From the NCBI GenBank assembly GCA_024639505.1, contig JAHEIE010000003.1, forward strand, positions 1-34,359: a DNA stretch of 34,359 nucleotides. Direction: 5' to 3'. This document shows, in pieces, positions 5,093 to 34,359 of the stretch. The stretch is from Crocinitomicaceae bacterium (GTDB lineage: Bacteria; Bacteroidota; Bacteroidia; Flavobacteriales_D; CAJJDF01). The stretch's first letter is position 1, and every line of letters begins with the position of its first letter. A program made the translations under genes and the position numbers. The notes below the pieces were generated by a model, which was not told where the DNA came from, ran no database searches, and was given only the letters and a program-made list of their open reading frames with translations.

Positions 5093-6034
5093 TTATAAGT
5101 GCCACAAATCGTGCTCTATATTCAACATTTTGTTTTTGATTTTTTCACCTTCCAATAGAACTTTGATTCCGTTCTTTTCGTAGTGATTTATTTCTCTGTC
5201 ATATACGTTAGACTCTTTGTAGATGTAACTTGCAAATTGTCTTTTCCAGAACAAATCATCAAATGACATTCTTTGAGCATCATTTTGTCTGTTGTATACA
5301 AAGTAGTTTTGGAATACATAACGACACTCTGGGAAATACAACCAAAACAATTGCTTTGGTGCTTTAAATTCTCCATCTTCATCGTAAGTTGCAATGATTG
5401 GACAAATACCAATAATTCTTACATCCATCACAGATCTTTGCTTGTCAAAAAACCAATCTTCTTTTACTAAATACTGCATGATATTTTCGGCAGTGATAGC
5501 ATTTTTAGAAGTAATGAAAATATCGTCACCTTCATCATCGTACATTGGTTCACCATTTTCATCTAATTTCTGAACTTGAGATGTATTGTACAATAAGTTA
5601 TCAATGGTTGTTTTGTAATTTGTATCATTCGTATTTCCCTGAGGAGCAACTACTGGGTACAGAAATTCTCCATCCCAATCTAACTTACCATTTCCATTGA
5701 TTTCATAAGGAGTTAAACTTCCTTCAGTCTCAATTCCATACTTAATAATATCCCACATTGCCATTCTATCAGTCAATGGCTCTCTTGGGTAAAACAAAGG
5801 AAAATTAAGCTTTTGCTGAACGTCAATCACTCTCCATATTCTCTTACTCCACATTACATCCGCTTCTCTTAATGGTACGTAAGAAATTACTTTCTTAGTG
5901 GGGATATGCTGCTGAACATACAATCCATCCAATACATTGGAAGGTGACACTCCTGTACTTTGGAGCTGTCCAAATGCAAATCCAGTCATCATGAGTGAGG
6001 CTGCTATCGCTATTGCTATTATTTTCGTCTTCAT
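5093..6034 (-). CDS. gldN: Type IX secretion / gliding protein GldN (PorN-like)
   Basis: A 313-residue periplasmic protein with a signal peptide (residues 1-22, ending AFGQ). In the type IX system GldN binds the outer-membrane lipoprotein GldK to form large rings and connects to GldM. Identification rests on its place as the last gene of porP-gldK-gldL-gldM-gldN and on family-typical stretches such as LREADVMWSKRIWRVID (about 56-72) and QLFWLYFPECR (about 227-237). An acidic stretch near 155-175 (DENGEPMYDDEGDD) is a likely loop. There is no gldO duplicate after it, unlike Flavobacterium johnsoniae. A 56-base gap separates it from gldM, and a strong terminator follows. Confidence 0.93.
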   Translation of the reverse strand: MKTKIIAIAIAASLMMTGFAFGQLQSTGVSPSNVLDGLYVQQHIPTKKVISYVPLREADVMWSKRIWRVIDVQQKLNFPLFYPREPLTDRMAMWDIIKYGIETEGSLTPYEINGNGKLDWDGEFLYPVVAPQGNTNDTNYKTTIDNLLYNTSQVQKLDENGEPMYDDEGDDIFITSKNAITAENIMQYLVKEDWFFDKQRSVMDVRIIGICPIIATYDEDGEFKAPKQLFWLYFPECRYVFQNYFVYNRQNDAQRMSFDDLFWKRQFASYIYKESNVYDREINHYEKNGIKVLLEGEKIKNKMLNIEHDLWHL

Positions 6035-6090: not shown

Positions 6091-7770
6091 TTACAACACT
6101 TTGAAAGTAAGTCCACCAATTGGTTTAGACTTTCCGTCAGGACCAGCAACCATTACGTCACTGAAGTAAATTTTTTGTCCTTTCTTAGCGTTCTTCAATA
6201 AGTTTTTCATTTTAGGAGTTAATGAACCTCCCCTTCCTTTTTCTTCAATCAACTTTCCGTTTACAATTACTTCTAGAGTAAATGATTTTACAGAAAACTG
6301 AACATCCAAAGGAGAATCAGCCAACTTTGCAGTCAAAGGTGGTGTTTGTTTCAACAATCCATTTTGTATCGTATTGTCACCATAAGTTCTTCCTGCATAG
6401 TAAGGTTGTGGCTTTGGCATAGGCATAATTCTAAACTTCTGCATTCCCACTTTTTTACCGTCAGCAGTTACAGAAACAGTAGCTTCTTTACCTCCACCAA
6501 CTTTAGCGATATACAAATCACCTTTTTTAGAGAAAGAACTACAACCTGAACAAGAAACTTTCACAGCATCTGGTGGATAACCAGAAGCAACTGCTTGAAT
6601 CTTATTGTCGTAACCTCTGTACATTACATTCAGTTCTGGTGCAGCAATAGAAGCCGAAGGCTTTCCTACTGTGTACTCAAATGCAAACGGTAATTCAGTA
6701 GCAACTCCTGCCAATTCTACCGATAAGTTCCCTTCTAAGTTTCTTTTACCTGGTGAACCTGCGCTAATTACAAATGCACCTGAATCTGAAGTAGCGTAAT
6801 CTCCAGCGTCACCCATTCTATATTTGATTGGGTATTTTTTTGTAGAATCAAAAGCAACAATTCCTACTTTTACGTCTAGTTTCTCACCCACGTTTAGGTA
6901 TTGAGTAGATGCTATTACTTGCGCTTCTACTTTGTTGATATTCATCATTGGAGTTTCTACTCTTGACATTAACATTTTAGAAGCTTTTTCTTGAGCTAAT
7001 CTAACATCATTTCTCAAAGAAGTCATTGTACTAATTACTCCAACTATAGGTTGGTGGTAGAATCTTGCTACGTTCCAATCTTTATCTTCTTTGTGTTGCT
7101 TTACTTTTTCCGGCTTTGTAAGGCTTCGGTATATTTCCGCCAATTCAGTTTTATTTGGATGATTTTCATCAATTAAAAATTTTTGAAAACCTTCAAAACT
7201 TTGTAGATTCTCCTTTTTGACATTATATACTTTACCATCCTTTTTAATAGAATCTGCAACAATTAAGATGATTTCATCACGATACTTGATTAAGTCTTCT
7301 CGAAATTTCTTTCCTCTCTTAGTTGACTCAGGAGTATCCCCCCCAAATAATCTAGAAGGTGTATCATAATCATCCTTTTTACTTATTTCTTCAATTGGAA
7401 GATATTCTGTTATTTGAGTTTCAGGATTTTTTGTAAACCACTTTTTATCTTCAACTTCCAGAAACATCTCATTCATTTCGTTGTAGATATGATCATCTAC
7501 AGCATTTGCTTTCTCAGCAACTTTATTGAACAAAGGTAAAATATCCTCTGCAGATTTCTTAGATTGAGGATCCTGCATTAAAAAACCGATTTTGGTATTA
7601 ATACCATTTATCGATTGTACTATGTTTGTATTTTGTTCCAATGATTGTTCATCTATTGTAACGAAGGCGTCAAGAATACTCTTGGAAACGTTTAGTGCTA
7701 ACATGGCTGTTAACACTAAATACATCATTCCAATCATTTTCTGCCTTGGGGTTTCTTTTCCACCTGCCAT
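6091..7770 (-). CDS. gldM: Type IX secretion motor protein GldM (PorM-like)
   Basis: A 559-residue inner-membrane protein with one N-terminal helix (about 12-30) after the family-typical start GGKETPRQKMIGMMYLVLT, and a long periplasmic arm. With GldL it forms the proton-driven rotary motor, and its periplasmic domains carry motion to the GldK/GldN ring. The arm shows an alpha-helical first domain (about 40-270) followed by beta-rich domains, with the phrase VGKPSASIAAPELNVMYRGYDN typical of the family near 368-389 and a CxxC (Cys407, Cys410). At 559 residues it is somewhat longer than the roughly 515-525 usual for characterised GldM/PorM. The extra length seems to lie in a charged region (about 108-235) of the first periplasmic domain. 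The gap to gldL is 49 bases. Confidence 0.95.
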   Translation of the reverse strand: MAGGKETPRQKMIGMMYLVLTAMLALNVSKSILDAFVTIDEQSLEQNTNIVQSINGINTKIGFLMQDPQSKKSAEDILPLFNKVAEKANAVDDHIYNEMNEMFLEVEDKKWFTKNPETQITEYLPIEEISKKDDYDTPSRLFGGDTPESTKRGKKFREDLIKYRDEIILIVADSIKKDGKVYNVKKENLQSFEGFQKFLIDENHPNKTELAEIYRSLTKPEKVKQHKEDKDWNVARFYHQPIVGVISTMTSLRNDVRLAQEKASKMLMSRVETPMMNINKVEAQVIASTQYLNVGEKLDVKVGIVAFDSTKKYPIKYRMGDAGDYATSDSGAFVISAGSPGKRNLEGNLSVELAGVATELPFAFEYTVGKPSASIAAPELNVMYRGYDNKIQAVASGYPPDAVKVSCSGCSSFSKKGDLYIAKVGGGKEATVSVTADGKKVGMQKFRIMPMPKPQPYYAGRTYGDNTIQNGLLKQTPPLTAKLADSPLDVQFSVKSFTLEVIVNGKLIEEKGRGGSLTPKMKNLLKNAKKGQKIYFSDVMVAGPDGKSKPIGGLTFKVL

Positions 7771-7819: not shown

Positions 7820-8623
7820 TTAACCGTTCGGGTTAATATTCATGGCATTTAGCATATTTCCATATACTTTGTTCAGAGCTTGTAAGTTTTTACTCAACTC
7901 TGTAATGTTAGTTTTGTAGTTTCTAGTGTCTTCAACAGAATCTGCAAGAGTTCCCATCATTTCACCAATTCCAGATTGAATTTTCTTAGAGTTTTCTAAT
8001 GATTCAGTTGCTCCTTCTAATTGCATTTCATATACTTTGTTCAAAGCAGTTAGATTTCCAGCAACCTTTTGCATTTCTTCTCCAAATGATTGTCCAGCCT
8101 CTGTTGCATTTGTCAATCCCATTAGAGATTCACTTGCTTTTGTATAAGATTCAGCTAAACCGTCTACTTTTGCAGCAGCATTTTTCAAGCTATTTGTGTA
8201 ATCCGCAGAAACAGAAGTAGCATCAGACATATTGCTTATTTTGTTTGCTGTTTCAGACAAGTTTCTCATTCCAGCTCCTAAGCTCTCAATCAAAGCTCCA
8301 TCTATTTTTGCTTCTTCCAACATTCCATCCAATTGCTGTGTAACAGTTCCGCTTTTGTGTGAAAGTGAAGTAATTTCATCGTCATCAGAACCGTGACCTA
8401 AAGCTAATTCTGGGTAAACCAATGTCCAATCATACTCTTCATGAATTGGCTCAAAGGCTGAGAATAAGAATATAACTGCTTCCGTTCCAAGACCAACTGT
8501 AAGCATCAAACTCGCTCCTGGCCAGTGTTGAATTTTAAATAGTGCTCCTACAATTACAACAGCTGCACCAATTCCGTACAGTTTTGACATAAAATTTTTC
8601 CATGCTTTAGTTCCTGGTTTCAT
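7820..8623 (-). CDS. gldL: Type IX secretion motor protein GldL (PorL-like)
   Basis: A 267-residue inner-membrane protein. Two helices (about 14-31 and 38-57) enclose the HWPGAS turn, and the polar membrane residues known to matter for proton use in GldL appear to be kept: Lys30, His33 and Glu48, with Glu58 at the helix end. The rest is a long cytoplasmic helical tail with a repeated phrase ALNKVY near 194 and 249. Five GldL subunits surround two GldM helices to form the motor. The order gldK-gldL-gldM-gldN is conserved across the phylum. A short GTTT repeat lies in the 97-base gap before it. Residue matches to F. johnsoniae are from memory. Confidence 0.95.
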   Translation of the reverse strand: MKPGTKAWKNFMSKLYGIGAAVVIVGALFKIQHWPGASLMLTVGLGTEAVIFLFSAFEPIHEEYDWTLVYPELALGHGSDDDEITSLSHKSGTVTQQLDGMLEEAKIDGALIESLGAGMRNLSETANKISNMSDATSVSADYTNSLKNAAAKVDGLAESYTKASESLMGLTNATEAGQSFGEEMQKVAGNLTALNKVYEMQLEGATESLENSKKIQSGIGEMMGTLADSVEDTRNYKTNITELSKNLQALNKVYGNMLNAMNINPNG

Positions 8624-8720: not shown

Positions 8721-10202
8721 TTAGTTGACGTCTCCTCCTTTTTCATTTCCTCCTCTACCTAAATAGGCTGACACACATCTAAAGCCAATGTAGCTTTTTG
8801 CCGTATCTTGGTACTCGTATGTTCTAGAACCAGTTTGCAGGTAATAACCAATGTCTTTCCAAGACCCACCTCTAATCACTTTTCTTTTCATTGAAATTGG
8901 ATCATGATCCAATGCATTGTACTCGTATTCTGGATTCAAATCATGTGAAAACTCATACATTGATTCGTCATAAGCAGTATTTGTCCATTCAGCAACATTT
9001 CCTGCCATGCAATACAATCCGTAGTCATTTGGATGATAAGATGTAGCTTTTACAGTGTAAGTTCCTCCATCTTCCATGTATCTTCCTCTCATTGGCTTAA
9101 AGTTTCCTAAGAAACATCCTTTTGAGTTTCTGATGTAAGGACCTCCCCAAGGATAAGGACTTTGATCTAACCCACCTCTTGCTGCATATTCCCATTCAGC
9201 TTCTGTAGGTAATCTAAAATCATCGATTCTTGGGTCTCCAATACTTCCTAAATGTCCATTTAATAAATTCGTTCTCCATACACAAAATGCTTTTGCTTGT
9301 GACCAAGTAACACCAACAACTGGATAATCATCGTAGGCAACACTTGAAAAATACTGTCTTGCATATGGCTCATTATATGAATAGGCAAAGTCATTTACCC
9401 ATACCAAAGTATCAGGATAGACATTAATTTGTTCATGTATGATAAATCTTGATCGATCAGAGTGCGCTCGTATTGAATTATTTTGTCCTTTGCTGTTTCT
9501 CCAACCTAGGTCCAAATCTCTTCCTTGCTGAACCTCTTCATCGTACTGATCTACAGGAAAATCAAATCCCTCGTCTTTCATCTTCAATCTATGTTCTTCT
9601 CTGTCTTCATATTCTGTGTTAGAAATAGCTTTGACTACAGTTCTACCCTTTGAAGCCGCTGCCTTAAAATCAATCCAGTAATAGTCAAACATTAATTTTC
9701 TTACATCGATCTCTCTAGCACCATAAAACCTTTGATTTTCTGGCAACACCATTTCAGACATTAAGATTGGATAAAAATCTGGATCTTCCCAATCAATTTC
9801 AACATCCCAATCCAAATTCCAATCTTCTTCATCTTTTTCTTCCAATTCATCGTCATACGTAGGAATTAAAAATTCTTCTGGAAATTCCTCCGCTAAATAT
9901 CTCATTGCAATTGAGTCTCTCACCCAATATACAAACTGACGATATTCGTTGTTTGTAATTTCTGTGTGATCCATATAAAATGCAGAAACAGTAACTGTCT
10001 TTGTTTTATTCTGTTGAGTAAAAGGAACATCTTGGTCACTTTGTCCCATCTGGAAACTTCCTGCAGCAATATATTGCATATCCAATGGATCGTACCCATA
10101 CCATTCTGGTCTTCCTTGCACACCAATCAACTCACCGTTACCCGTTTGACAGCTGGCAAACACCAAAACCGCAAACCCTATCATTGTTGCTAATCTTTTC
10201 AT
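8721..10202 (-). CDS. gldK: Type IX secretion lipoprotein GldK (PorK-like)
   Basis: A 493-residue lipoprotein from the ATG at 10202. A longer frame starting at 10262 adds 20 residues ahead of the signal peptide and would begin upstream of the predicted promoter, so I reject it. The signal peptide ends in VFASC, with lipid-anchored Cys18. The body is a formylglycine-generating-enzyme-like (sulfatase-modifying factor) fold starting near QYIAAGSFQMG (43-53). It runs to the C-terminal RGGSWKDIGYYLQTGSR and IGFRCV phrases, and its family members in this role are structural, not catalytic. A long acidic insert lies near 130-165. GldK forms the outer-membrane ring with GldN. A promoter-like box inside a perfect inverted repeat precedes the gene. 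Confidence 0.95.
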   Translation of the reverse strand: MKRLATMIGFAVLVFASCQTGNGELIGVQGRPEWYGYDPLDMQYIAAGSFQMGQSDQDVPFTQQNKTKTVTVSAFYMDHTEITNNEYRQFVYWVRDSIAMRYLAEEFPEEFLIPTYDDELEEKDEEDWNLDWDVEIDWEDPDFYPILMSEMVLPENQRFYGAREIDVRKLMFDYYWIDFKAAASKGRTVVKAISNTEYEDREEHRLKMKDEGFDFPVDQYDEEVQQGRDLDLGWRNSKGQNNSIRAHSDRSRFIIHEQINVYPDTLVWVNDFAYSYNEPYARQYFSSVAYDDYPVVGVTWSQAKAFCVWRTNLLNGHLGSIGDPRIDDFRLPTEAEWEYAARGGLDQSPYPWGGPYIRNSKGCFLGNFKPMRGRYMEDGGTYTVKATSYHPNDYGLYCMAGNVAEWTNTAYDESMYEFSHDLNPEYEYNALDHDPISMKRKVIRGGSWKDIGYYLQTGSRTYEYQDTAKSYIGFRCVSAYLGRGGNEKGGDVN

Positions 10203-10225
10203 ATCTCTTATTCTTTTCTTTAGAA

Positions 10226-10250
10226 TTATTAACAAATATATTGTTAATAA
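10226..10250. promoter_or_regulatory. Perfect 10-bp inverted repeat covering the gldK promoter
   Basis: Arms TTATTAACAA (10226-10235) and TTGTTAATAA (10241-10250) are exact reverse complements with a 5-base spacer. On the minus strand the sequence TATATTTG (10240 down to 10233) is an exact TAnnTTTG -7 box, with TTG at 10262-10260, 19 bases upstream, as a -33 element. A transcript would start near 10226, about 24 bases before the gldK ATG. There is no T-run, so it is not a terminator. It could be an operator or, for readthrough transcripts from porP, an mRNA hairpin. Confidence 0.5.
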
Positions 10251-10300
10251 CTCAAAATTCAATCCTTATTACGTTAAAAATTTAATTATGTTTTATTTTT

Positions 10301-11266
10301 TTACAAAAAATATGGGTGAACTTCCTTTTCTTCTCTAATTGGCGGTGTAACACTGAAACAATAATTTAACATGATTTCGTGGTTTCCATTAGAGAAATAG
10401 TTACTCAAGAAAGAGGTACCTAAACCATAAGAATAACCAACTTTCAGAGCTCCTCCTTTCAACAACTGAAGACCCGCCATTGGAGCAATCGCATCATTGT
10501 GACGGTAAGTTGCTCCAGCCCAAAACGTATTAAAAGCTAAAACGTGTAAATTGAAATCATATTGTGTTTTTACACCGTCAGACTTAATCATAACGTTTGG
10601 TTTCAGCACAAATCCACCAAATAAAGCCGGTGATTCATATCCTCCCATTACGAAATAATGTCTTGAAGCAGAAACACTTAATGCTTTCAATTCTGTTTGT
10701 GAAATGTTAGTTGTTGAAACTCCCAAATATATGCTTGGGTTTTTATAATAAAGACCAGCGTTAAAACTCACTCCTCCTTCTGATTGATTCCCAGTAGGAA
10801 TAGATTGATCTAAGCCTGCAGTCGTACCTCCTGGAATTCCGTCAGGGGTTATCCATGCTCCGTTAATGTTTTTTTGAAAATAACCTGCAGACAATCCAAT
10901 TGCAAAGTTACCTCCTCCAATATCACTAAGACCGATGTCCCTCAAGTGTAAAGAATAAGACAACCTAAATACATTGTTCTTTTCCCAACCAATTTGGTCA
11001 TTGTAATATGAAAAACCTAAACCTCCTTTTATCAGCCCGATTTTAGGTGCTGTAAAATTAATAAGGGTAGTATTTGGCTCACCGGCACTAAAGCCTGTCC
11101 ACTGTCTTCTTGAAATTGCTGTAAGACAAAACGCGTCTTTGAAACCAACAGAGGCTGGATTAAAAGACAATTGATCGAACATAAAATGAGTAAACTGCGG
11201 ATCTTGCTGTGCTTTTGAAACAAAAGCCAAACTTACCACAAACGCTACTAGTACTAATTTTTTCAT
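10301..11266 (-). CDS. porP: PorP/SprF-family type IX secretion outer-membrane protein
   Basis: A 321-residue outer-membrane beta-barrel protein. I use the ATG at 11266, giving a standard signal peptide (residues 1-19, ending SKA); an ATG at 11278 adds four residues. The mature N-terminus QQDPQFTHFMFDQLSFNPASVG is the family hallmark, and the C-terminal part has alternating barrel strands. PorP-type proteins anchor the PorK/PorN ring or assist export of particular cargo such as the adhesin SprB. Its place directly ahead of gldKLMN matches the porPKLMN order of Porphyromonas gingivalis, so this is probably the core PorP and not a cargo-specific SprF copy. The gap to gldK is 98 bases. Confidence 0.9.
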   Translation of the reverse strand: MKKLVLVAFVVSLAFVSKAQQDPQFTHFMFDQLSFNPASVGFKDAFCLTAISRRQWTGFSAGEPNTTLINFTAPKIGLIKGGLGFSYYNDQIGWEKNNVFRLSYSLHLRDIGLSDIGGGNFAIGLSAGYFQKNINGAWITPDGIPGGTTAGLDQSIPTGNQSEGGVSFNAGLYYKNPSIYLGVSTTNISQTELKALSVSASRHYFVMGGYESPALFGGFVLKPNVMIKSDGVKTQYDFNLHVLAFNTFWAGATYRHNDAIAPMAGLQLLKGGALKVGYSYGLGTSFLSNYFSNGNHEIMLNYCFSVTPPIREEKEVHPYFL

Positions 11267-11341
11267 ATGATTGTTCATTATGGAATGAACTGCTAAAATA
11301 GTGAAAAAATCGGGATCAGAAAATTTTTTGTCAAATGTTTC

Positions 11342-11383
11342 TTGTTAAATTCTTGAAGAATTTTATTTAAATTAACAAAAATA
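11342..11383. promoter_or_regulatory. Predicted porP promoter region with TTGTTAA half-sites and a small palindrome
   Basis: On the minus strand TATTTTTG (11383 down to 11376) fits TAnnTTTG and is followed by TTAAT, the same extended box seen at gldK. TTGTTAA (11342-11348) and TTAACAA (11372-11378) are inverted copies. Between them lies a perfect 8-bp palindrome, AAATTCTT (11347-11354) and AAGAATTT (11356-11363), around one base. The region is very A/T-rich and no -33 match is seen, so chance is possible. Confidence 0.3.
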
Positions 11384-11387
11384 AGAG

Positions 11388-12548
11388 TTAGGAATGAATT
11401 CGGTTGTAGGTATTTATCCATAAGTCAGGCATTTCATCTTGCAGCGCTATTTCATAATCATGGTATGAGCATGGCACTAAATGGTGTCTTTCGAACTTTC
11501 TTTTCTTAGAGGGCGGATAAGGAATTTTCATCCACCACCTTCCAGATTTTTGACTCTTTATGAATGTCAACTCTTCTTCGGTATTAGAAATTACAACTTT
11601 ATAATTAGTGTAATACTTGCTGTTTGAGATTGGGGATTCATTGTTTCTATGAGCCACTCCATCCAAAAAATACCAAATCATTTGAGCTACAAGTTGTGCC
11701 GTTTGATTGTGAATATCATATTCTGGTGTCATTTCAAAAAACCCAATCGCATTTAACTTATCACTAATACCAGCATATCTGGCTATTTGACACGCTTCAT
11801 TTCCAAAAAAACCATTAGGCGATGCAAAACTAGTACCCGGAACTTCGCTTTGTCGGACACTATTTAAATCAAAACTTACCAGATTGGAATTTCTAAGAAT
11901 CGGCTCTGCCAATTCCATATTACTTTGAAGCTCGCCCAGCCTCTTTGTTTCAAAAAACAACTTGTGCATCATTTGCACGTTATCTGGATTCAAGTAATAA
12001 GATTGACTTCCTAGATTTGCATAATTGAACAAATAATTTGGTTTGGCTAATAAAATATCTTTGAGATACGAATCTGTGGTTGTTTCGTTGACGGCTTGAA
12101 AATCAATTTTCCTATCGATTGTCGTTAAATTGATAATCAACTCTAGTTTTTCGAAAGCCTTGTACATACCAAGAGTCAATTCTTGGCTCCCGCCAATTAA
12201 AACAGGAATTATATTTTTTTTGATTAATTGACTAAGAACCTCAGCCAAAGCAAAAAAAGTATCTGCTTGGGATTCGCCTTGCTCTATATTTCCCAAATCA
12301 ATGCAAGAAACTTGAGTTCCTGGAAACAATTTGTATAACTGATTACGCACTGCATCTGGCGAGTCCTTCACCGAAACAACCTCTGTCCCTCTTGACTCTT
12401 TTACACCTAAAAACGCAACTTTGTATTTTTTATTTATCTCGTCTCCGTTGTAAAAAACAACTTTAGAACCCAAAGATTTTGTGTTTTGGGCAAATTCCTC
12501 CTGGTTCTTTTCTGAAACTGGAGTTAGGAAAATCGAAAAATCTTTCAT
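11388..12548 (-). CDS. Degenerate arginase/formimidoylglutamase-fold protein, probable non-enzyme
   Basis: A 386-residue cytoplasmic protein with the ureohydrolase layout but broken metal sites. GG-H becomes GGSQ (Gln122 for the His ligand). DAHxD becomes Asp145-Arg-Lys147-Ile-Asp149 (Lys for His). SxDxDxxDP becomes Ser225-Phe-Asp227-Leu-Asn229-Ser-Val-Arg232-Gln233. Three of the six classical Mn ligands are therefore lost, while the late EMTP motif (Glu272) is kept. An extra C-terminal region (about 305-386) contains KSGRWWMKIPYPP. Similar proteins in flavobacteria are usually labelled formimidoylglutamase. It starts 12 bases after topA and lies directly ahead of porP-gldKLMN, with no hut genes nearby, so a role in histidine or arginine breakdown is unlikely. 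Its function is unknown. Confidence 0.85.
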   Translation of the reverse strand: MKDFSIFLTPVSEKNQEEFAQNTKSLGSKVVFYNGDEINKKYKVAFLGVKESRGTEVVSVKDSPDAVRNQLYKLFPGTQVSCIDLGNIEQGESQADTFFALAEVLSQLIKKNIIPVLIGGSQELTLGMYKAFEKLELIINLTTIDRKIDFQAVNETTTDSYLKDILLAKPNYLFNYANLGSQSYYLNPDNVQMMHKLFFETKRLGELQSNMELAEPILRNSNLVSFDLNSVRQSEVPGTSFASPNGFFGNEACQIARYAGISDKLNAIGFFEMTPEYDIHNQTAQLVAQMIWYFLDGVAHRNNESPISNSKYYTNYKVVISNTEEELTFIKSQKSGRWWMKIPYPPSKKRKFERHHLVPCSYHDYEIALQDEMPDLWINTYNRIHS

Positions 12549-12560
12549 TTAATCAAAGAG

Positions 12561-15083
12561 TTATTTCTTCTTGGCTACTTTCTTTTTAACTGCTTTCTTT
12601 TTTGGGGCAGCTTTTTTCTTAGCGGGCTTAGCTTTCTCTATCATTGCCTTCACTTCATCCAGAGTTAGTTTTTCTGCTTTGGTAGTTTTTGGCAATTCTA
12701 TTTTTGTTTTCCCTTTAATTACGTTGAACCTTCCCCACCTTGCTTTTTCTACTCTTATACCTTCTTCTTCCCAGTTGTGAATGATTTTATCAATTTCCTT
12801 TTGCTTCTTGGTTTCAATCAATTCAACAATATCATCTTTTGAAAGGTTATCAAAATCGTACTTCTTGTTTACATTGATAAACATTTCGTTCCATTTGATA
12901 AATGGTCCAAATCTTCCTGATCCTTTTTGAACTGGCAAACCTTCATACTCAGCAATTGGAGCATCTGCTTCTTGTTTTGCAACAATAAGCTCGATAGCTC
13001 TAGGTAATTCCATGTCGAGCGGCTCTTCTCCTTTTGGAATAGAAACAAATAGAGCATCGTATTTAATATAAGGACCAAATCTCCCGTTCGATACAATCAC
13101 TTCATGTCCTTTGTGCTCACCCAGTTCTTTCGGAAGTTTGAATAAATCCAACACCTCTTCAAGAGTTATTGTTTCTAAACTTTGATTTTTCTGTAACGAT
13201 GCAAATTTTGGCGCAGGTCCGTCTTCTTCTTCCGAAACTCTTCCAATTTGAGCCATTGGCCCAAACCTTCCAATTCTTACCAGAATATCATTTCCTTTTT
13301 CATCTTCTCCTAAAACTCTTTCTCCCGATTGACGTTCACCATGCTCCAGTGTGTTTTCCACTTTTGTATGAAATGGATTGTAAAACTTCTTGATCATATC
13401 TGTCCATTTCATCAATCCTTCGGCAATATCATCGAATTCTTTCTCTACAGATGCAGTGAAATTATAATCCAATATTCCATCGAAATTATCTACCAAAAAA
13501 TCATTTACTACGGTTCCAATGTCTGTAGGTGACAATTTATTTTTGTCTCCTCCATAGTTTTCAGTCAATTGTTTTGACTTCACTTCGCCTTTTTTCAGGG
13601 TAAGTTGAGCATAGTTCCTTTGGCTGTATTCAATTTCATCTTTCGTTACATACCCTCTTTTTTGAACTGTTGTAATGGTTGGCGCATAAGTAGATGGTCG
13701 TCCAATCCCAAGCTCCTCAAGTTTCTTTACCAAAGAAGCTTCTGTATATCTCGCTGGTGGTCTTGAGTATCTTTGAGTTGCTTCAATCATTTTAACATCC
13801 AAGAAATCTCCTTTTTTCATTGGAGGAAAAATCCCTTCGTTGTCATCGTCAGTATCTTCATTGTCTTCATCTCTTCCTTCCAAATACACTTTCAAAAAAC
13901 CTTCGAATAGAATAATCTCTCCTCTAGCAGTAAAAAGTTCCTTAATTGTGTCTCCTGCAATTTTTACTGTTGTCTTTTCCAGTTTTGCCTCACTCATTTG
14001 AGATGCAATTGCTCTTTTCCAAATCAAATCGTAAAGCCTATTTTCGCTACTATCTGTTCCAGCAGAATGGACTGCAAAACTTGTTGGTCTAATAGCTTCG
14101 TGAGCTTCTTGAGCTCCTTTTGTCTTTGTTTTGAATACTCTTGGATGAGAAAAATCATTTCCGTAAGCTTTTTTTATTTCAGCCTCTGCTCCATTTCGGG
14201 CAGTTTGCGAAAGATTTATAGAATCGGTTCTCATGTATGTAATTCGACCAGCTTCGTATAGCTTTTGGGCTACACTCATAGTTCTACTTACCGAATATCC
14301 CAGTTTTCTACTTGCCTCCTGCTGAAGAGTAGAGGTCGTAAAAGGTGGCGCTGGAGATTTTTTAGCCGGTTTCTTCTCGATATTATTAATAGAAAACTGA
14401 GCAGAGGCACAATCGTTCAGAAAATTCAATGTCTCTTCTTCCGTTTTGAATGTCTTTCCTAAGTCAGCTTTTATTACTGTGCCATCCAATAAAAATTCAG
14501 CCTTTACTTTGAAAGCAGCAACGCTGTTAAATTCTCGAATTTCTCTTTCTCGCTCAACAATCAATCTTACGGTAACAGACTGCACTCTTCCGGCAGACAA
14601 AGAAGGTTTGATTTTTTTCCATAATACTGGGGAAAGTTCAAAACCAACTAATCTATCTAAGACTCTTCGAGCTTGCTGTGCATTTACCAAATCAATGTTG
14701 ATTTTTCTTGGGTTTTCGATTGCATTTTGTACCGCAGTCTTGGTGATTTCGTTGAAAGTAATTCTTTTCGTTTCTTTTGTCTTTAACCCTAAAGTTTCAT
14801 ACAAATGCCATGAAATGGCTTCCCCTTCTCGATCCTCATCAGTCGCTAACCATACAATGTCAGCAGCTTTGGTTAATCTCTTCAATTCTGCAACTACCTT
14901 CTTTTTATCTTCGGATACTTCGTAATTCGGATTAAAATCATTCTCAATATCTATCCCCATTCCTTTTCTTGGTATATCACGCACGTGTCCAAAACTGGAT
15001 TTTACGGTAAATCCTGCTCCCAAATACCCTTCTATGGTTTTGGCTTTGGCTGGTGACTCAACTATGACTAGGTTCTTGGACAT
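12561..15083 (-). CDS. topA: DNA topoisomerase I (type IA)
   Basis: An 840-residue enzyme that relaxes negative supercoils by cutting one strand. The Toprim domain carries Glu9 and the acidic set Asp82, Asp84 and Glu86 (TDEDREGEAI). The active tyrosine is Tyr283 in RITYMRTDS, and GRPSTYAP (461-468) is a conserved core motif. The C-terminal region has no cysteine zinc ribbons. Instead it has repeats with the core GRFGP (605-609, 667-671, 723-727) and a diverged WGRFN (783-787), followed by a lysine- and alanine-rich tail (817-840) likely to bind DNA. This is the usual arrangement in the phylum. It leads the unit that continues into the arginase-like protein and the type IX genes. Confidence 0.97.
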   Translation of the reverse strand: MSKNLVIVESPAKAKTIEGYLGAGFTVKSSFGHVRDIPRKGMGIDIENDFNPNYEVSEDKKKVVAELKRLTKAADIVWLATDEDREGEAISWHLYETLGLKTKETKRITFNEITKTAVQNAIENPRKINIDLVNAQQARRVLDRLVGFELSPVLWKKIKPSLSAGRVQSVTVRLIVEREREIREFNSVAAFKVKAEFLLDGTVIKADLGKTFKTEEETLNFLNDCASAQFSINNIEKKPAKKSPAPPFTTSTLQQEASRKLGYSVSRTMSVAQKLYEAGRITYMRTDSINLSQTARNGAEAEIKKAYGNDFSHPRVFKTKTKGAQEAHEAIRPTSFAVHSAGTDSSENRLYDLIWKRAIASQMSEAKLEKTTVKIAGDTIKELFTARGEIILFEGFLKVYLEGRDEDNEDTDDDNEGIFPPMKKGDFLDVKMIEATQRYSRPPARYTEASLVKKLEELGIGRPSTYAPTITTVQKRGYVTKDEIEYSQRNYAQLTLKKGEVKSKQLTENYGGDKNKLSPTDIGTVVNDFLVDNFDGILDYNFTASVEKEFDDIAEGLMKWTDMIKKFYNPFHTKVENTLEHGERQSGERVLGEDEKGNDILVRIGRFGPMAQIGRVSEEEDGPAPKFASLQKNQSLETITLEEVLDLFKLPKELGEHKGHEVIVSNGRFGPYIKYDALFVSIPKGEEPLDMELPRAIELIVAKQEADAPIAEYEGLPVQKGSGRFGPFIKWNEMFINVNKKYDFDNLSKDDIVELIETKKQKEIDKIIHNWEEEGIRVEKARWGRFNVIKGKTKIELPKTTKAEKLTLDEVKAMIEKAKPAKKKAAPKKKAVKKKVAKKK

Positions 15084-27163: not shown

Positions 27164-28711
27164 ATGGCAGTAAGAATTTTATGGGCTGATGACGAAATTG
27201 ATTTATTAAAGCCTCACATTATGTTCTTGGAACAAAAAAACTGTGAGGTAGACACGATAAATAATGGAAGTGAAGCAATTGATATGGTAAAAGAAAAATC
27301 CTATGATTTGGTTTTCTTGGACGAAAACATGCCAGGAATTTCGGGCTTGGAAGCACTTACAGAAATCAAAAGAATAAGTCCCAACTTACCTATCATTATG
27401 ATAACAAAAAGTGAGGAAGAATCTATCATGGAAAGTGCAATTGGAAAAAACATATCTGATTATCTAATTAAACCCGTGAATCCTCATCAAATTTTGCTTG
27501 CTGTAAAAAAGAATACAGATCAATCTCGATTGATAAGTGAAGAAACCACCTCAGGATATCAGCAGGAATTCAGAAACATAGGAATGAAACTGATGGGGAA
27601 TTTGGATATCAATGACTGGAAAGAACTTAACGAACAGCTCGTTTATTGGGAGTTACAGATGGATAAATCTCAAGACAAGAGCATGATGGAAATTTTTGAA
27701 ATGCAAAAAAAAGAGGCGAATCTTCTTTTTGCTCGTTTCATCGAAAACAACTACTTGGATTGGCTCAATGGAACTTCTGACGAAACTCCTGTTTTATCAC
27801 ATACCTTATTTCAAAAAAAAATAGCGCCATCTATCAAAGAGAAGCCTTCATTTCTGTTGGTAATTGATAACTTCCGTTACGACCAATGGAAAGTTTTAAA
27901 ACCTCTGTTTTCTGAGTATTTTGACGTAACAGAAGAGGATACTTATTTCAGTATTTTACCTACCGCTACTCAATATGCCCGTAATTCAATTTTTGCTGGT
28001 CTCATGCCTTCTGAAATCAGAAAAAGATTTCCAAGTAAATGGGTTGAAGAGGAAGACGAAGGAGGAAAAAACAATTTTGAAGAGGACTTCTTGAATGATC
28101 AAATGAAAAGAATGGGTCTTGGCCTAAAAACATCTTACACCAAGATTACAAACAATCAAAAAGGAAAGAAATTGGTTGATAATTTTTCTGATTTACTAAA
28201 AAATGATTTCAATGTAATCGTGTATAATTTCGTAGATATGCTTTCGCATGCCAGAACAGACATGGAAGTAATCAAAGAATTGGCTGATGATAATTCTGCT
28301 TACCGTTCCATTACTGAATCGTGGTATAAGCACTCTCCTCTTCAAGAAATAGTTCAAAAGATTCATGAAAACGGCTTGCAATTAATTATTACTACTGACC
28401 ATGGAATGATAAAAGTGAGCAATCCTGTTAAGGTTGTTGGAGATAAAAATGTAAATACAAACTTGCGTTACAAGTTAGGAAAAAACATGAGTTACAATAC
28501 CAAAGAAGTATTTGAGGTTGCAAACCCAGACGATGCCTTTTTGCCTAAATTAAATCAAAATACACGTTACATATTTGCCAAAGAAGATACTTTCTTGGCC
28601 TATCCAAACAATTACAATTACTACGTAAATTTTTACAAAGACACTTTTCAGCACGGAGGAATATCAATGGAAGAAGTAATAATTCCTATTCTTAAATTGA
28701 ATCCTAAATAA
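27164..28711 (+). CDS. porX: PorX-type response regulator with PglZ/alkaline-phosphatase-like domain
   Basis: A 515-residue cytoplasmic regulator of type IX secretion. The receiver domain (about 3-118) has the acidic pair Asp9-Asp10, phosphoacceptor Asp53 (FLDENMPG), Thr81 and Lys103. A helical linker (about 125-225) leads to a PglZ-type alkaline-phosphatase-fold domain (about 226-515) with metal-site candidates Asp235 (VIDNFRYDQ), the Thr cluster near 267-269 (PTATQ), Asp359/His362 (DMLSH) and Asp412-His413 (TTDHGM). In P. gingivalis PorX works with kinase PorY and sigma factor SigP to control type IX genes, and its phosphatase-like domain acts on cyclic or linear oligonucleotides. No porY or sigP is nearby. 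A terminator follows. Confidence 0.95.
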   Translation: MAVRILWADDEIDLLKPHIMFLEQKNCEVDTINNGSEAIDMVKEKSYDLVFLDENMPGISGLEALTEIKRISPNLPIIMITKSEEESIMESAIGKNISDYLIKPVNPHQILLAVKKNTDQSRLISEETTSGYQQEFRNIGMKLMGNLDINDWKELNEQLVYWELQMDKSQDKSMMEIFEMQKKEANLLFARFIENNYLDWLNGTSDETPVLSHTLFQKKIAPSIKEKPSFLLVIDNFRYDQWKVLKPLFSEYFDVTEEDTYFSILPTATQYARNSIFAGLMPSEIRKRFPSKWVEEEDEGGKNNFEEDFLNDQMKRMGLGLKTSYTKITNNQKGKKLVDNFSDLLKNDFNVIVYNFVDMLSHARTDMEVIKELADDNSAYRSITESWYKHSPLQEIVQKIHENGLQLIITTDHGMIKVSNPVKVVGDKNVNTNLRYKLGKNMSYNTKEVFEVANPDDAFLPKLNQNTRYIFAKEDTFLAYPNNYNYYVNFYKDTFQHGGISMEEVIIPILKLNPK

Positions 28712-29843: not shown

Positions 29844-30908
29844 CTAGTCTTCATCACTACTTCCTAACTTCAAAGTAACGCCCACGGTGTGAATACCTCC
29901 TAAAACAGGAGCTGTTCTGTATGAGTAATCAATCCCCATGCTAGATTCGTTTTTTCCAAAAGGAAAATCCAAAGAAACCCCAGCCGTTGGACCTGAAAGT
30001 GCAGAAAGCGTTTCTTCATCAGAAAAAATTCCTTCTTCATAAGCCAATCCAGCTCTCAAGATCACTACTATTTTCTTCGCATTCAAGGAATACTCTCCTC
30101 CAACACTAAACTGATCTCTCTGAAAAGAATTGGATGTAAAAGTTCCTGCCATTGTCAACTTGTTATTCTCATTTATTAAGAAATCATAAGCTGCAGCAAT
30201 ATTAATCAATGAAGGCAATTCAAAGTTTGCAGTTCTTTGTTCAGTAGTTGTAGAAATTTCAGTAAAAGGATTCATAGTTTCTATTGCAAAACCATCTCCT
30301 TTAAACTTCAATGGAGGGCCAACATTTTTAAGAGCCAAACCAATTTTTATTTGGTCATTTTCTCCAGTTACATATCTCACACCAGCATCAAATGCAATAC
30401 CTGATGAACGAGCATTCGAAATTCCTTCATTAAGAATTTTGATGTTTATACCACCCGTAATGGAAGCCGAAAATTCTCTTGCGTAAGCCAAGTTCATCAA
30501 AAAACTAGATGGAGAAAACGTTCCTAATCCTCCTTCAGGCAATTCTTCTGTAGTAATTGGAATATTTCCATAATTGGTCGACATTATTGTTACACCCAAT
30601 ACACTAGACTCGCCCACACGCTGAGCTAAACCAAAAGAGTTTATTTTAATATCGGTAGATTGCATCCAAGTTGTATTACTAAACCCTATTTGGGTTTTTC
30701 CAGCAAGAGCTAATCCCGCAACATTCAGCTGTATTGCCTCAAGTCCTTTAACATGTGCACCTCCAGCATTTCCCCATCCAGAAGTTCTTCCCCATGGATT
30801 GATAAGTAATTGAGTTGCCCCTGCTGCACCAATTCTGTCTTCGTTACCTGCGAAAGTATTTACAGAAAACAATGTTGCAATTGATAGTATTGTTAATTTA
30901 AGTTTCAT
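29844..30908 (-). CDS. PorV/PorQ-family outer-membrane barrel protein, cargo-linked paralogue
   Basis: A 354-residue outer-membrane protein. The signal peptide covers residues 1-20 (ending TFA). The mature start (GNEDRIGAAGATQLLINPWGRTSGWGNAGGAHVKGLEAI) is the FadL-like PorV/PorQ pattern, followed by alternating barrel strands to the C-terminus. It has INPWGRTSGWGNAG where core PorV proteins have a PDARxxGMGD-type phrase, so I judge it a paralogue, not the core PorV. PorV-type barrels receive type IX cargo by its C-terminal domain and carry it to the attachment complex. It begins 43 bases after the giant secreted protein gene, suggesting a dedicated pair. Confidence 0.82.
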   Translation of the reverse strand: MKLKLTILSIATLFSVNTFAGNEDRIGAAGATQLLINPWGRTSGWGNAGGAHVKGLEAIQLNVAGLALAGKTQIGFSNTTWMQSTDIKINSFGLAQRVGESSVLGVTIMSTNYGNIPITTEELPEGGLGTFSPSSFLMNLAYAREFSASITGGINIKILNEGISNARSSGIAFDAGVRYVTGENDQIKIGLALKNVGPPLKFKGDGFAIETMNPFTEISTTTEQRTANFELPSLINIAAAYDFLINENNKLTMAGTFTSNSFQRDQFSVGGEYSLNAKKIVVILRAGLAYEEGIFSDEETLSALSGPTAGVSLDFPFGKNESSMGIDYSYRTAPVLGGIHTVGVTLKLGSSDED

Positions 30909-30951: not shown

Positions 30952-33900
30952 TTAGAAGTTAGTTAAATCTGGTGGTCTCAATGCACCAAACCACTTAATC
31001 ACCTTTTCTCCTACTTCTGGTACATCTACATGAATAATGTATACACCTCCAGCAATTGGAACTCCGTTTATATTCTTTAAATCCCAATCAATTGATGTCA
31101 AAGGATCATCTTTAGTTAGAGTTCTAATTAAAGAACCTCCAACGTTATAGATTTTAACAGTACACTTATCTGGTAGATTTGTAATCTTTATTCTAGAATC
31201 CAATCTACTCGACTCATAATTTGAGTATGCGTAGTAAGGGTTAGGTACTACATTGATGATATCCAAAGCCGTTTCAGCTTGGTCTAACACTCCTTTTCCT
31301 GTTGCAACCGAATTTGTATTAAACTTATACAAATTAAACCATTCGTTTTGGCTTGCAGCCTCATTGTTGTTCGTAATCGAACTAACAAAATTTACCACAT
31401 TTCCTCCGGTAGCATACCTCTCATAATCAGTTTCTACTCTCACTTTCAATATTGCATCTGTACCCAAGAAAGTTGTTCCAGGAATTGTCATTGGTATTCC
31501 TACCCACATACAAGATCTCCATAACTGTCCTCTCTGACTTGCATTATTCATTTTATCCCAAACAGTTTGACCATTGTCATATTGTGTAACTGGATTAGCA
31601 TCATTTGCCATTATAATTGGCTCTGTTACAATATCCTGGTTTCTGAATACATACAAATAGTGTTTCCCACCTGCAACCCAGCTACCTAAACCTTGAGAAA
31701 AAGTCGAAGTTGGGTTAAACATCATGTCTCGTCCGTTGTCTCCTGCAAGCCACGAATCTTCTCCGTAAGCTACATTCAATCTTTCTCCAGTTTCAAGATC
31801 AATTACATAGCCTGGGAACCATCCCATTCCTGTTGCATTTACCAAATCTCCTTCATTACTATTGTAACCAGCATCTCCAGCTTGTCTTCCTTCCTTATCG
31901 ATAGAAGCTGCGGCCCTAGGTCGTAACTTACTTACACCACCTTCCGCTAAAGTTGCACTTTCTTGTGTTTCAAGAACAACGCATCTAGTCCACAAACTTT
32001 TATCCCTAGTGTAAACTACATCAATACTATGTAGCTCTAACATACCATTGTATGATCTTACAGCGCCTGATGCTTCTCCAACTCCTCCCACTGGTGAGTT
32101 AGGAACTGGCTGAGAACCCATTAATCTGAATGGTGCGAAAGTTCCATTTGCAATTCCTTCAAATTGTTGTTGGTCATCCAAGCCTTGATAATCGTTGTAA
32201 TCTCCATCTGGTGTAGCTGGATCACTAATTTGCGTCCCACTTCTTATCCAGTTAAATTCTGAATTTCCATCCTGATCTGGCATTCCTGTCAACCAAGCCT
32301 TAGTAGGATCGGCATATTCTAGACTCCAAGAAATTAAGTTTGTACTTCTTTCAGCCGCACCACCTGCACTAGCAGGATCAGTTTTCACTAAAACAGTTTG
32401 ATGAACATATTGCTCGATGTCTATTGAGAAACCAAGATCTGGGAATAATTGTTCGTAACCAAGTGCTATGCTTTCTTCTGAAGTATAAACTTCACCAGTA
32501 GAAAGACTTTTTAATTCCCAAGTTGCTGAATCCAATCTGTTATTCGCATCTTTTACAAATCTCAATTCATATTCGTCTGCAATCAAGTTCAATGGATCAA
32601 TGACTTTTATATCCACTGGACCTTTTCCTGCCGCATAAGTAACTTCATCCGCTCTGTTGCTTCTCGCTATTTCATTTCTAGATTCAACTGTCAAGTCTAA
32701 CTCTCTTCCTCCGTTACCCATACCTTCAAGTCTAGTAATTTCTACTCCATCACCGTAACTTGCATTTTGAACAGTTCCTCCTGCCTCTGGTGAAGGGATG
32801 TGAGGAATTCCAGCATAAGCAGCTATTTCTCCTCCGTCAAATCCTTTTCTTGAGGCGATGTAAGGTTTCTGTTGTCCATCTAACGATAATGCGTTGGTTG
32901 GGTCATATTTTTTAAATTCATTATATCCGTATGCGATGATTAAGTAATAATACGTTTTATGATTTACTAACCTTGTATTTCCTTTGGCAAACAAATCTTC
33001 TGTTACTCTGAAAGAATGTTTAATTCCTTCATCAGCACCATTAGCCAACAATTCTGGGACACCAACACCCATAACAGCGTCCACAGTGTAATTGATCAAT
33101 TTAGTTACTCCATTTGCAATATCAAACTGAGCTACTAATCTTGATTTATCTATGTCATAGATATCTGAGGCAGAAACTGAATTATCTTTCAATTGGTACA
33201 CTTGGTAACCCTCAAAGGTATAGTAGTTATTTTTTCCATTTACTCCTTTCAAGCTATCTACTAATAAACTTGTGTCAATTGTTGGATCTAATTTTGCATA
33301 TGCTTCAATATCTCCACCATTAGCTTTAGGATCGATTGTAAGAATTAATTCGTTCTCCAGTTCTTGAATAGAAAGTTTTGGGGCATCTGGTCCCTCCAAA
33401 ATTTCAAAACAATTATCAAATAAACTTTGTGCTTTATCATCTGCTTGAGTCAACTTGGCAATAGCCGATAAGTTTCCGCTTGTTCCTCTTCCATAAACTA
33501 CACCAACAGTAATATTGTTCAATGCACCTGGCTCCAAAATAAATGGACCGGCCGATTGCAAAAATCTTCTATCTCCTGCTGCGTTTCCTACTGAAGATTC
33601 TGACCAAGGCAAAGCAGCTACAGCCGTATTACCTCCTGTACCCCATCCTTCTGGATCGGTATTTCTTCCTGTTGCAGGATCACTTGGGAACATGAAGTCA
33701 CAATCAACTCCGGAAGTAGATGTACCAATTGGTGCTGGATAAGCATTTCCTCCATACTGGAATTTAACACCATCTTTCCATAAACCTCTTAGGTAATTGT
33801 AATGTTCTATTTGGTTATCTGGGTCGCTTTGATTCCCTCCAGCAGAATTGTTATAATAAACAAAACGTCTCATTCCAAATCTTTCATTATCTACAACCGA

Positions 33901-34359
33901 ATCTCCATATCCAATTCCATTTCCAGGTATTGCCTCAGTTAAGAAATTCTGAGAACCATTTACAAAGTATGGGTTAGCTACTCCATCATTGTCTTGGTAA
34001 GGTCCTTCAAAAAAATCAATTCCTACTGCTGGTGGGTTACTTCCGTAAGGAACTGCACCATTGGAACAATTATCATCTGTTGCATCAGCATTGTAGGCAT
34101 ATCCTAAACCTCTTCCTACATCACAACCTACGTAATCATCTTGTGCACAACCCAAATCTGTATCAACATTCTGTCCGAAATAAGTATCAAATAAAGTCTG
34201 TGTAGATCTATTTATCAATTCATAATTGTAAAAAGTCATGTCATTTATCTCATCATTTGTTGCAAACGAGAACGCTTGACCTCTAATTTCCATACCAATT
34301 GGCTCTCCACCTGATTCTGTATGGATATTTCCTCGATCATTAAAAATCCACCAGATTGT
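30952..34359 (-). CDS. Very large secreted protein with type IX-like C-terminal domain (N-terminus outside window)
   Basis: The frame is open to the right edge, giving at least 1,135 residues; the ATG at 34293 is internal because 22 more in-frame codons precede it (WWIFNDRGNIHTESGG and on). The body is rich in Gly, Asp, Asn and aromatic residues with many acidic Asn/Asp turns, typical of extracellular Bacteroidota proteins. The last 100 residues resemble a sorting or FlgD-like domain: VVPNPYYAYS, then KIYNVGGSLIRTL, then GVPIAGGVYIIHVDV and VIKWFGALRPPDLTNF. The chain runs about 12 residues past the usual end of a type A sorting domain. The PorV/PorQ-like gene follows 43 bases later. No enzyme motif is recognised. 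Confidence 0.8.
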   Translation of the reverse strand, partial: TIWWIFNDRGNIHTESGGEPIGMEIRGQAFSFATNDEINDMTFYNYELINRSTQTLFDTYFGQNVDTDLGCAQDDYVGCDVGRGLGYAYNADATDDNCSNGAVPYGSNPPAVGIDFFEGPYQDNDGVANPYFVNGSQNFLTEAIPGNGIGYGDSVVDNERFGMRRFVYYNNSAGGNQSDPDNQIEHYNYLRGLWKDGVKFQYGGNAYPAPIGTSTSGVDCDFMFPSDPATGRNTDPEGWGTGGNTAVAALPWSESSVGNAAGDRRFLQSAGPFILEPGALNNITVGVVYGRGTSGNLSAIAKLTQADDKAQSLFDNCFEILEGPDAPKLSIQELENELILTIDPKANGGDIEAYAKLDPTIDTSLLVDSLKGVNGKNNYYTFEGYQVYQLKDNSVSASDIYDIDKSRLVAQFDIANGVTKLINYTVDAVMGVGVPELLANGADEGIKHSFRVTEDLFAKGNTRLVNHKTYYYLIIAYGYNEFKKYDPTNALSLDGQQKPYIASRKGFDGGEIAAYAGIPHIPSPEAGGTVQNASYGDGVEITRLEGMGNGGRELDLTVESRNEIARSNRADEVTYAAGKGPVDIKVIDPLNLIADEYELRFVKDANNRLDSATWELKSLSTGEVYTSEESIALGYEQLFPDLGFSIDIEQYVHQTVLVKTDPASAGGAAERSTNLISWSLEYADPTKAWLTGMPDQDGNSEFNWIRSGTQISDPATPDGDYNDYQGLDDQQQFEGIANGTFAPFRLMGSQPVPNSPVGGVGEASGAVRSYNGMLELHSIDVVYTRDKSLWTRCVVLETQESATLAEGGVSKLRPRAAASIDKEGRQAGDAGYNSNEGDLVNATGMGWFPGYVIDLETGERLNVAYGEDSWLAGDNGRDMMFNPTSTFSQGLGSWVAGGKHYLYVFRNQDIVTEPIIMANDANPVTQYDNGQTVWDKMNNASQRGQLWRSCMWVGIPMTIPGTTFLGTDAILKVRVETDYERYATGGNVVNFVSSITNNNEAASQNEWFNLYKFNTNSVATGKGVLDQAETALDIINVVPNPYYAYSNYESSRLDSRIKITNLPDKCTVKIYNVGGSLIRTLTKDDPLTSIDWDLKNINGVPIAGGVYIIHVDVPEVGEKVIKWFGALRPPDLTNF

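Follow-up and report, generated by a model that had tools for sequence, protein, structure and literature searches.

An arginase-fold protein with a patterned loss of metal ligands, often encoded beside type IX secretion genes in the Bacteroidia

The window analysed here is a 34,359-nucleotide stretch of DNA taken in full, positions 1 to 34,359 of contig JAHEIE010000003.1 of a Crocinitomicaceae bacterium (assembly GCA_024639505.1). Within it, a gene for an arginase-fold protein, for which we use argF as a working label only, lies between topA and a run of type IX secretion system (T9SS) genes comprising a porP/sprF family gene, gldK, gldL, gldM and gldN (Table 1). All of these neighbours share the minus strand with argF, whilst miaB and a sigma-54 activator gene, located beyond topA, run in the opposite direction. 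A first-pass annotation of the window had argF beginning 12 bases after topA and leading into porP-gldKLMN, with no histidine or arginine breakdown gene nearby; open reading frame (ORF) and profile annotation bears this arrangement out, and no such breakdown gene appears in the window's ORF annotation. By no sequence criterion does the predicted argF product qualify as a ureohydrolase, and the family to which it belongs is found almost exclusively in genomes that also encode the T9SS motor protein GldL.

The arginase fold of the predicted protein is well supported because several comparisons and a structural model converge on it. The Pfam Arginase domain (PF00491) matches residues 43–294 against a cut-off of 22 bits and is also matched by 38 of 39 family members. 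An AlphaFold2 (AF2) model, built with 38 relatives as the alignment, has a high predicted local distance difference test score (pLDDT; Table 1) and a predicted template modelling score (pTM) of 0.92, and when this model was compared with the PDB using Foldseek, the best 50 matches were all ureohydrolases, with template modelling (TM) scores, relative to the target, of up to 0.81. Metformin hydrolase, formimidoylglutamase, agmatinase and arginase chains are among these matches. A profile search of the PDB placed Bacillus subtilis formimidoylglutamase first (E 1e-14), and the best NCBIfam model was hutG (TIGR01227), at 70.2 bits against a cut-off of 229.15 and thus below threshold. Hydropathy analysis of the protein revealed no hydrophobic N-terminus, signal peptide or transmembrane segment.

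Catalytic ureohydrolases are built around a binuclear site with six metal ligands. In rat arginase, manganese site A (Mn A) is formed by His101, Asp124, Asp128 and Asp232 and site B (Mn B) by His126, Asp124, Asp232 and Asp234. We take Gln122, Asp145, Asp149 and Asp227 to be the Mn A positions of the argF protein and positions 147 and 229 to be those of the ligands unique to Mn B. The first-pass annotation described three of the six classical ligands as replaced, with the SxDxDxxDP motif ending in Arg-Gln and Asp145, Asp149, Asp227 and Glu272 remaining, and this is what the sequence contains: Gln122 (in GGSQ), Lys147 (in DRKID) and Asn229 (in SFDLNSVRQ) occupy the altered positions. The window protein has three of the six ligands and none of the 137 family members has more than four, so that neither the protein nor its family possesses the six-ligand site; the earlier proposal of a pseudo-enzyme is thereby supported insofar as it concerns the loss of ureohydrolase function.

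Judged from the alignment, this loss is patterned, with site B hit and the ligands of site A largely spared, and it is not a chance event because the same pattern recurs in the 137 relatives. His147 and Asp229, the Mn B pair, are never found together in any member (0/137), and the column occupied by Lys147 varies more than nearly all others in the family, whereas the Mn A set (Gln or His at 122 plus the three Asp) is intact in 116 of the 137. Nor is Gln122 disabling by itself, since the solved B. subtilis formimidoylglutamase 3m1r reads GGDN at the position of the first His and an ‘N114H variant’ of the Trypanosoma cruzi enzyme is listed beside the wild type among the PDB matches. The earlier description of a dismantled metal site therefore holds for the ligands of site B but is too strong overall, because the site A set is so widely kept. 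In a branch comprising Chitinophagales and Saprospiraceae sequences, site A and Glu272 have been lost as well (for example PDFRQA, G272).

Constraint is most evident elsewhere in the protein. Across the 137 sequences Arg68, Asp84, Gln182, Arg203, Glu215, Pro216, Arg219, Gly246 and Trp292 show little or no variation, and the protein ends in a largely invariant extension of about 85 residues that is absent from the catalytic ureohydrolases compared. This extension is folded in the AF2 model (pLDDT mostly above 80) and carries two conserved motifs, RWW (residues 337–339) and PCSYxDY, of which Trp338, Trp339, Cys360 and Tyr365 are present in every member whose sequence extends this far, whilst Arg337 is found in 133 of 137. 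It has no significant match in the PDB, and no second Pfam domain was found in 39 family members. Comparison with the nearest relative gave a non-synonymous divergence (dN) of 0.11, the only value that can be quoted for the nearest relatives because synonymous divergence (dS) is saturated. Since the metal columns drift whilst other columns and the C-terminal extension stay conserved, argF reads as a maintained gene for a non-ureohydrolase rather than a decaying one; across the family the fold is kept, the metal centre lost and the gene constrained, the combination that marks a non-catalytic homologue.

Retention of site A raises the possibility, which we consider improbable, that the protein is still an enzyme and that its mononuclear Mn A half catalyses a different reaction, whether on a guanidino, an imino or some other substrate. 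The prevalence of the site A set and of Glu272 would fit such an activity, as would the one-metal site of the histone deacetylases, whose fold is related to that of arginase. In the Chitinophagales/Saprospiraceae branch, however, R203, E215, R219, W292 and the C-terminal motifs persist even though site A and the Glu are gone, which argues for a conserved function that is independent of the pocket.

That the protein functions as a formimidoylglutamase or an arginase, the names it would receive by similarity, is scarcely credible. Although hutG is its best family model (70 bits) and known enzymes tolerate changes of the first ligand, the score is far under the 229 bits that hutG requires, the two ligands unique to Mn B are both gone from the window protein and never occur together in its relatives, and the genome encodes separate canonical enzymes on other contigs, an agmatinase (C99) and an arginase (C30). 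The fold shared with HutG (3m1r, 1xfk, 4mxr; TIGR01227) extends over residues 40–300, and HutG is the best match by both PDB profile and NCBIfam model; unlike HutG, the argF protein has an additional C-terminal domain and is encoded outside any hut operon, with topA, miaB, porP and gldKLMN as neighbours. The agmatinase gene adjoins an arginine-decarboxylase-like gene. A canonical HutG-like ureohydrolase gene (with GGGHN, DPHAD and DLD motifs) is also present in this genome (G000), broken by contig ends into two pieces that share sequence (C97:48982-49554 and C11:14-193; L004 and L005).

Ureohydrolase homologues without a functional metal centre have been described before. Those covered by PMC11271267 and the references in it are an arginase-like protein of Trypanosoma brucei without a manganese cluster (Hai et al. 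2015, cited in PMC11271267), Fusobacteriaceae arginase domains and MetCb of metformin hydrolase. The T. brucei protein (4rhi-4rhq) gives a weak phmmer match to the argF protein; it differs in belonging to another lineage, in showing no RWW/PCSYxDY domain within the match and in having no link to secretion. MetCb/MfmB (8ryi, 8snf, 8x3g) is an arginase-family pseudoenzyme that acts through protein contacts, and 8ryi_C is the top Foldseek match of the argF model. The argF protein might by analogy be the inactive partner in a hetero-oligomeric ureohydrolase, and it is in keeping with this that both metformin hydrolase subunits are among the closest solved folds and that MetCb is itself a pseudoenzyme that lacks metal and serves as a binding partner (PMC11271267). 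We nevertheless regard such a role as very improbable: the MetCb gene lies beside that of its catalytic partner whereas no ureohydrolase gene adjoins argF, and in three genomes (G099, G236 and G298) the argF protein is the sole PF00491 protein found, for which reason an obligate heteromeric pseudo-subunit was rejected. The argF family appears distinct among pseudo-ureohydrolases in its ligand pattern, its C-terminal domain and its association with the T9SS.

The distribution of the family was examined by profile search in a class sample of 129 Bacteroidia genomes, 124 with GldL and 128 with TopA, and in an order sample of 149 genomes from the order of genome G225, here called Bacteroidales-like. 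The family is near-universal in the sampled Bacteroidia outside some host-associated lineages, being present, nearly always at full length, in 121 of the 129 class-sample genomes; in other classes of the phylum the matches span only about positions 1–305 of 388 and resemble ordinary ureohydrolases. GldL is encoded by 120 of these 121 carriers, and in the remaining one the contig breaks off 471 bp from argF, in the direction in which gldL would be expected. All 104 carriers in the order sample have GldL and all nine GldL-less genomes lack argF (Fisher 1.1e-5), giving 224 of 225 carriers with GldL when the samples are pooled. Counted by family, the six families with a GldL-less genome all fall among the 27 of 96 that lack argF (3e-4). 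None of the 101 genomes from the family of G225 carries the gene. Two contigs labelled as from Alphaproteobacteria and Sphingomonadales metagenome-assembled genomes (L013 and L039) hold Bacteroidota copies near-identical to L012 and L042 and are probably mis-binned.

Gene order is conserved as well. Taking linkage to mean within 8 kb on the same strand, gldL is linked downstream of argF in 68 of 121 class-sample and 61 of 104 order-sample carriers, and the reverse order is never seen; the tie to porP/gldKLMN claimed in the first-pass annotation is thus a conserved one. Linkage to topA, upstream, is found in 69 of the 121 class-sample carriers and to both topA and gldL in 59, and there is no class-sample genome in which topA and gldL lie together with argF not nearby. 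The first-pass annotation had also asked whether copies adjoining gldK/porP form a clade with the same ligand losses. They do not: in a quick LG+G4 tree of 110 members and three canonical ureohydrolases, with many weak forks, linked and unlinked copies interleave (11–12 label changes), which led us to reject a clade of T9SS-linked copies. Because the copies are interspersed and the ligand losses are family-wide, the topA-argF-porP-gldKLMN order looks old, with later breaks. In four Bacteroidales-type loci where the T9SS genes are not nearby (L014, L021, L022 and L027), neighbour clusters C8, C16 and C17 recur after topA-argF.

The gap between argF and porP contains a block, TTTTTT..ACTATTTTAGC..TTCAT, common to the window, L006, L007 and L008. 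As this block within the 109-bp gap is conserved in four relatives it may represent a porP promoter, in which case the T9SS genes could also be expressed from a promoter of their own. A sigma-70 style promoter scan gave no excess over shuffled sequences. The placing of argF at the head of the type IX genes, made in the first-pass annotation, accordingly needs care: porP-gldKLMN do follow, but porP perhaps has a promoter of its own. Further upstream of the block is a near-perfect palindrome, AAATTCTTgAAGAATTT, that is absent from L007 and L008.

These features leave a topA-linked housekeeping function as the main rival to a role in secretion, and one that we view as possible though unlikely. 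The protein would then be conserved in the cytoplasm of free-living Bacteroidia for housekeeping or for sensing stress or metabolites, its gene travelling with topA, the T9SS genes being old neighbours and both having been lost in host-adapted lineages. Linkage to topA is as frequent as that to gldL (69/121 against 68/121), argF follows topA by 12 bp yet is divided from porP by the promoter-like block, the topA-argF pair persists where T9SS genes lie elsewhere, and loss of argF is commoner than loss of the T9SS, as the GldL-positive genomes lacking argF indicate. The presence of argF does not track topA, however, because TopA is encoded in 128 of the 129 class genomes, those without argF included, and the presence of argF still implies GldL in lineages without linkage between them.

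We favour, at a probability of roughly 0.45, the reading that the argF protein is a cytoplasmic accessory of the T9SS, possibly a metal or ligand sensor, acting on a partner that we infer. It is found only with the T9SS and in a conserved gene order, as an accessory component would be; a core component would be present wherever GldL is, and argF is not. The existence of GldL-positive genomes without argF means that it is not core to secretion, and the one-way dependence, in which argF implies GldL but not the reverse, is what makes it accessory. Several observations weigh against even this role: argF is missing from 36 of the 140 GldL-positive genomes of the order sample and from four GldL genomes of the class sample; the GldL-variable families f160 and f163 have argF in neither member, so that independent contrasts are few; 43 of the 121 class-sample carriers have no linkage of argF to either topA or gldL; and in some lineages argF lies beside topA but not beside T9SS genes. 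Amongst the T9SS-positive lineages without argF (G213, G249, G278 and G284, with 35 further GldL-positive genomes from the order of G225), absence is mostly consistent by family (27 of 96 order-sample families).

As such an accessory, the argF protein would work by binding another protein, the likeliest partners being the GldL/GldM motor, on its cytoplasmic side, and the motor's regulator PorX, with the invariant C-terminal patch (RWW, PCSYxDY) as the putative contact surface. The site A pocket (Gln/His plus three Asp), where kept, may bind one metal ion or a small ligand and so tune contact with the partner; the retained half-site suggests that such modulation may occur in most lineages. A precedent for a cytoplasmic protein at the T9SS motor is PorX, which attaches to GldL at the latter's cytoplasmic domain (PMC10951265). 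Like PorX, the argF protein would be a soluble cytoplasmic protein tied to the T9SS and encoded in the same window, but the folds are unrelated (CheY plus PglZ in PorX) and the PorX contact is experimental whereas that of the argF protein is proposed. A bolder version, which we think clearly unlikely, would make it a cytoplasmic subunit of the T9SS motor, or a switch for it, that is present across the class and has been overlooked, and in which a ureohydrolase reduced to its Mn A half-site and joined to a new docking domain passes a small-metabolite or metal signal to the motor or to secretion.

The interpretation first offered for this gene is upheld in its loss of ureohydrolase function and its conserved link to T9SS genes, and is not supported as regards the linked clade and the suggested role in gliding. 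When the order sample, with its 104 carriers, was searched with the GldJ_short model at E<=1e-80, a single genome (G369) matched and none exceeded the cut-off (the long-GldJ model was not tried), and on this one model, at a stringent threshold, a gliding-specific gene was rejected. GldB is near-universal in the Bacteroidales-like order, T9SS-free genomes included, and is therefore uninformative on gliding.

Most work on the T9SS concerns two model genera, and little is known of its cytoplasmic side (the GldL tail and PorX). No literature on argF in gliding or T9SS work was found in a search that covered only a minority of subscription papers; among 5.4 million papers searched, ‘type IX secretion’ and ‘arginase’ occur together only in one Prevotella genome report, in a single mention, and the protein is apparently unmentioned. 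A soluble protein present in 94% of sampled Bacteroidia, only with the T9SS and frequently encoded next to the motor genes, is a candidate open to direct test. A likely annotation error is also corrected: a gene of this kind readily receives the name formimidoylglutamase, and histidine degradation would then be credited with a step that the argF protein does not perform. For enzyme evolution, the family offers a case in which one half of a binuclear site has been kept and the other lost.

Table 1 Features of the argF locus and of other T9SS-related genes in the window
Feature	Position	Strand	Remarks
argF, arginase-fold pseudo-ureohydrolase CDS (predicted)	11388..12548	-	ORF, 386 aa, ATG start; PF00491 62.8 bits; AF2 pLDDT 91
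C-terminal extension, aa 300-386	11391..11651	-	absent from catalytic ureohydrolases compared
Gln122, first His (Mn A) position	12183..12185	-	Q 103/137, H 20/137 relatives
Asp145, retained ligand position	12114..12116	-	131/137
Lys147, second His (Mn B) position	12108..12110	-	variability rank 380 of 384 columns
Asp149, retained Mn A ligand position	12102..12104	-	123/137
Asp227, retained ligand position	11868..11870	-	129/137
Asn229, Mn B Asp position	11862..11864	-	Asp in 0/137
Glu272, substrate-binding Glu position	11733..11735	-	E 102/137, G 21/137
topA	12561..15083	-	12 bp upstream of argF
argF-porP gap	11279..11387	-	109 bp; block conserved in four relatives
porP/sprF family gene	10301..11278	-	
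gldK	8721..10262	-	
gldL, inner-membrane motor	7820..8623	-	
gldM	6091..7770	-	
gldN	5093..6034	-	
PorX gene, T9SS response regulator	27164..28711	+	CheY and PglZ domains; NCBIfam NF052313, 817 bits
PorV/PorQ-family outer-membrane protein gene	29844..30908	-	adjoins gene for 1113-aa protein
Gene for 1113-aa protein	30952..34293	-	last 100 residues weakly match PorZ C-terminal end

A phage origin of argF was rejected, there being no PHROG match, as was a plasmid origin, plasmid matches being ordinary ureohydrolases from other phyla; no structured RNA was found in the argF region. The PorX gene lies about 15 kb from gldKLMN, and the window can be described as a loose T9SS cluster because, in addition to porP-gldKLMN, it holds this gene, the PorV/PorQ-family gene and the gene whose product resembles the end of PorZ.
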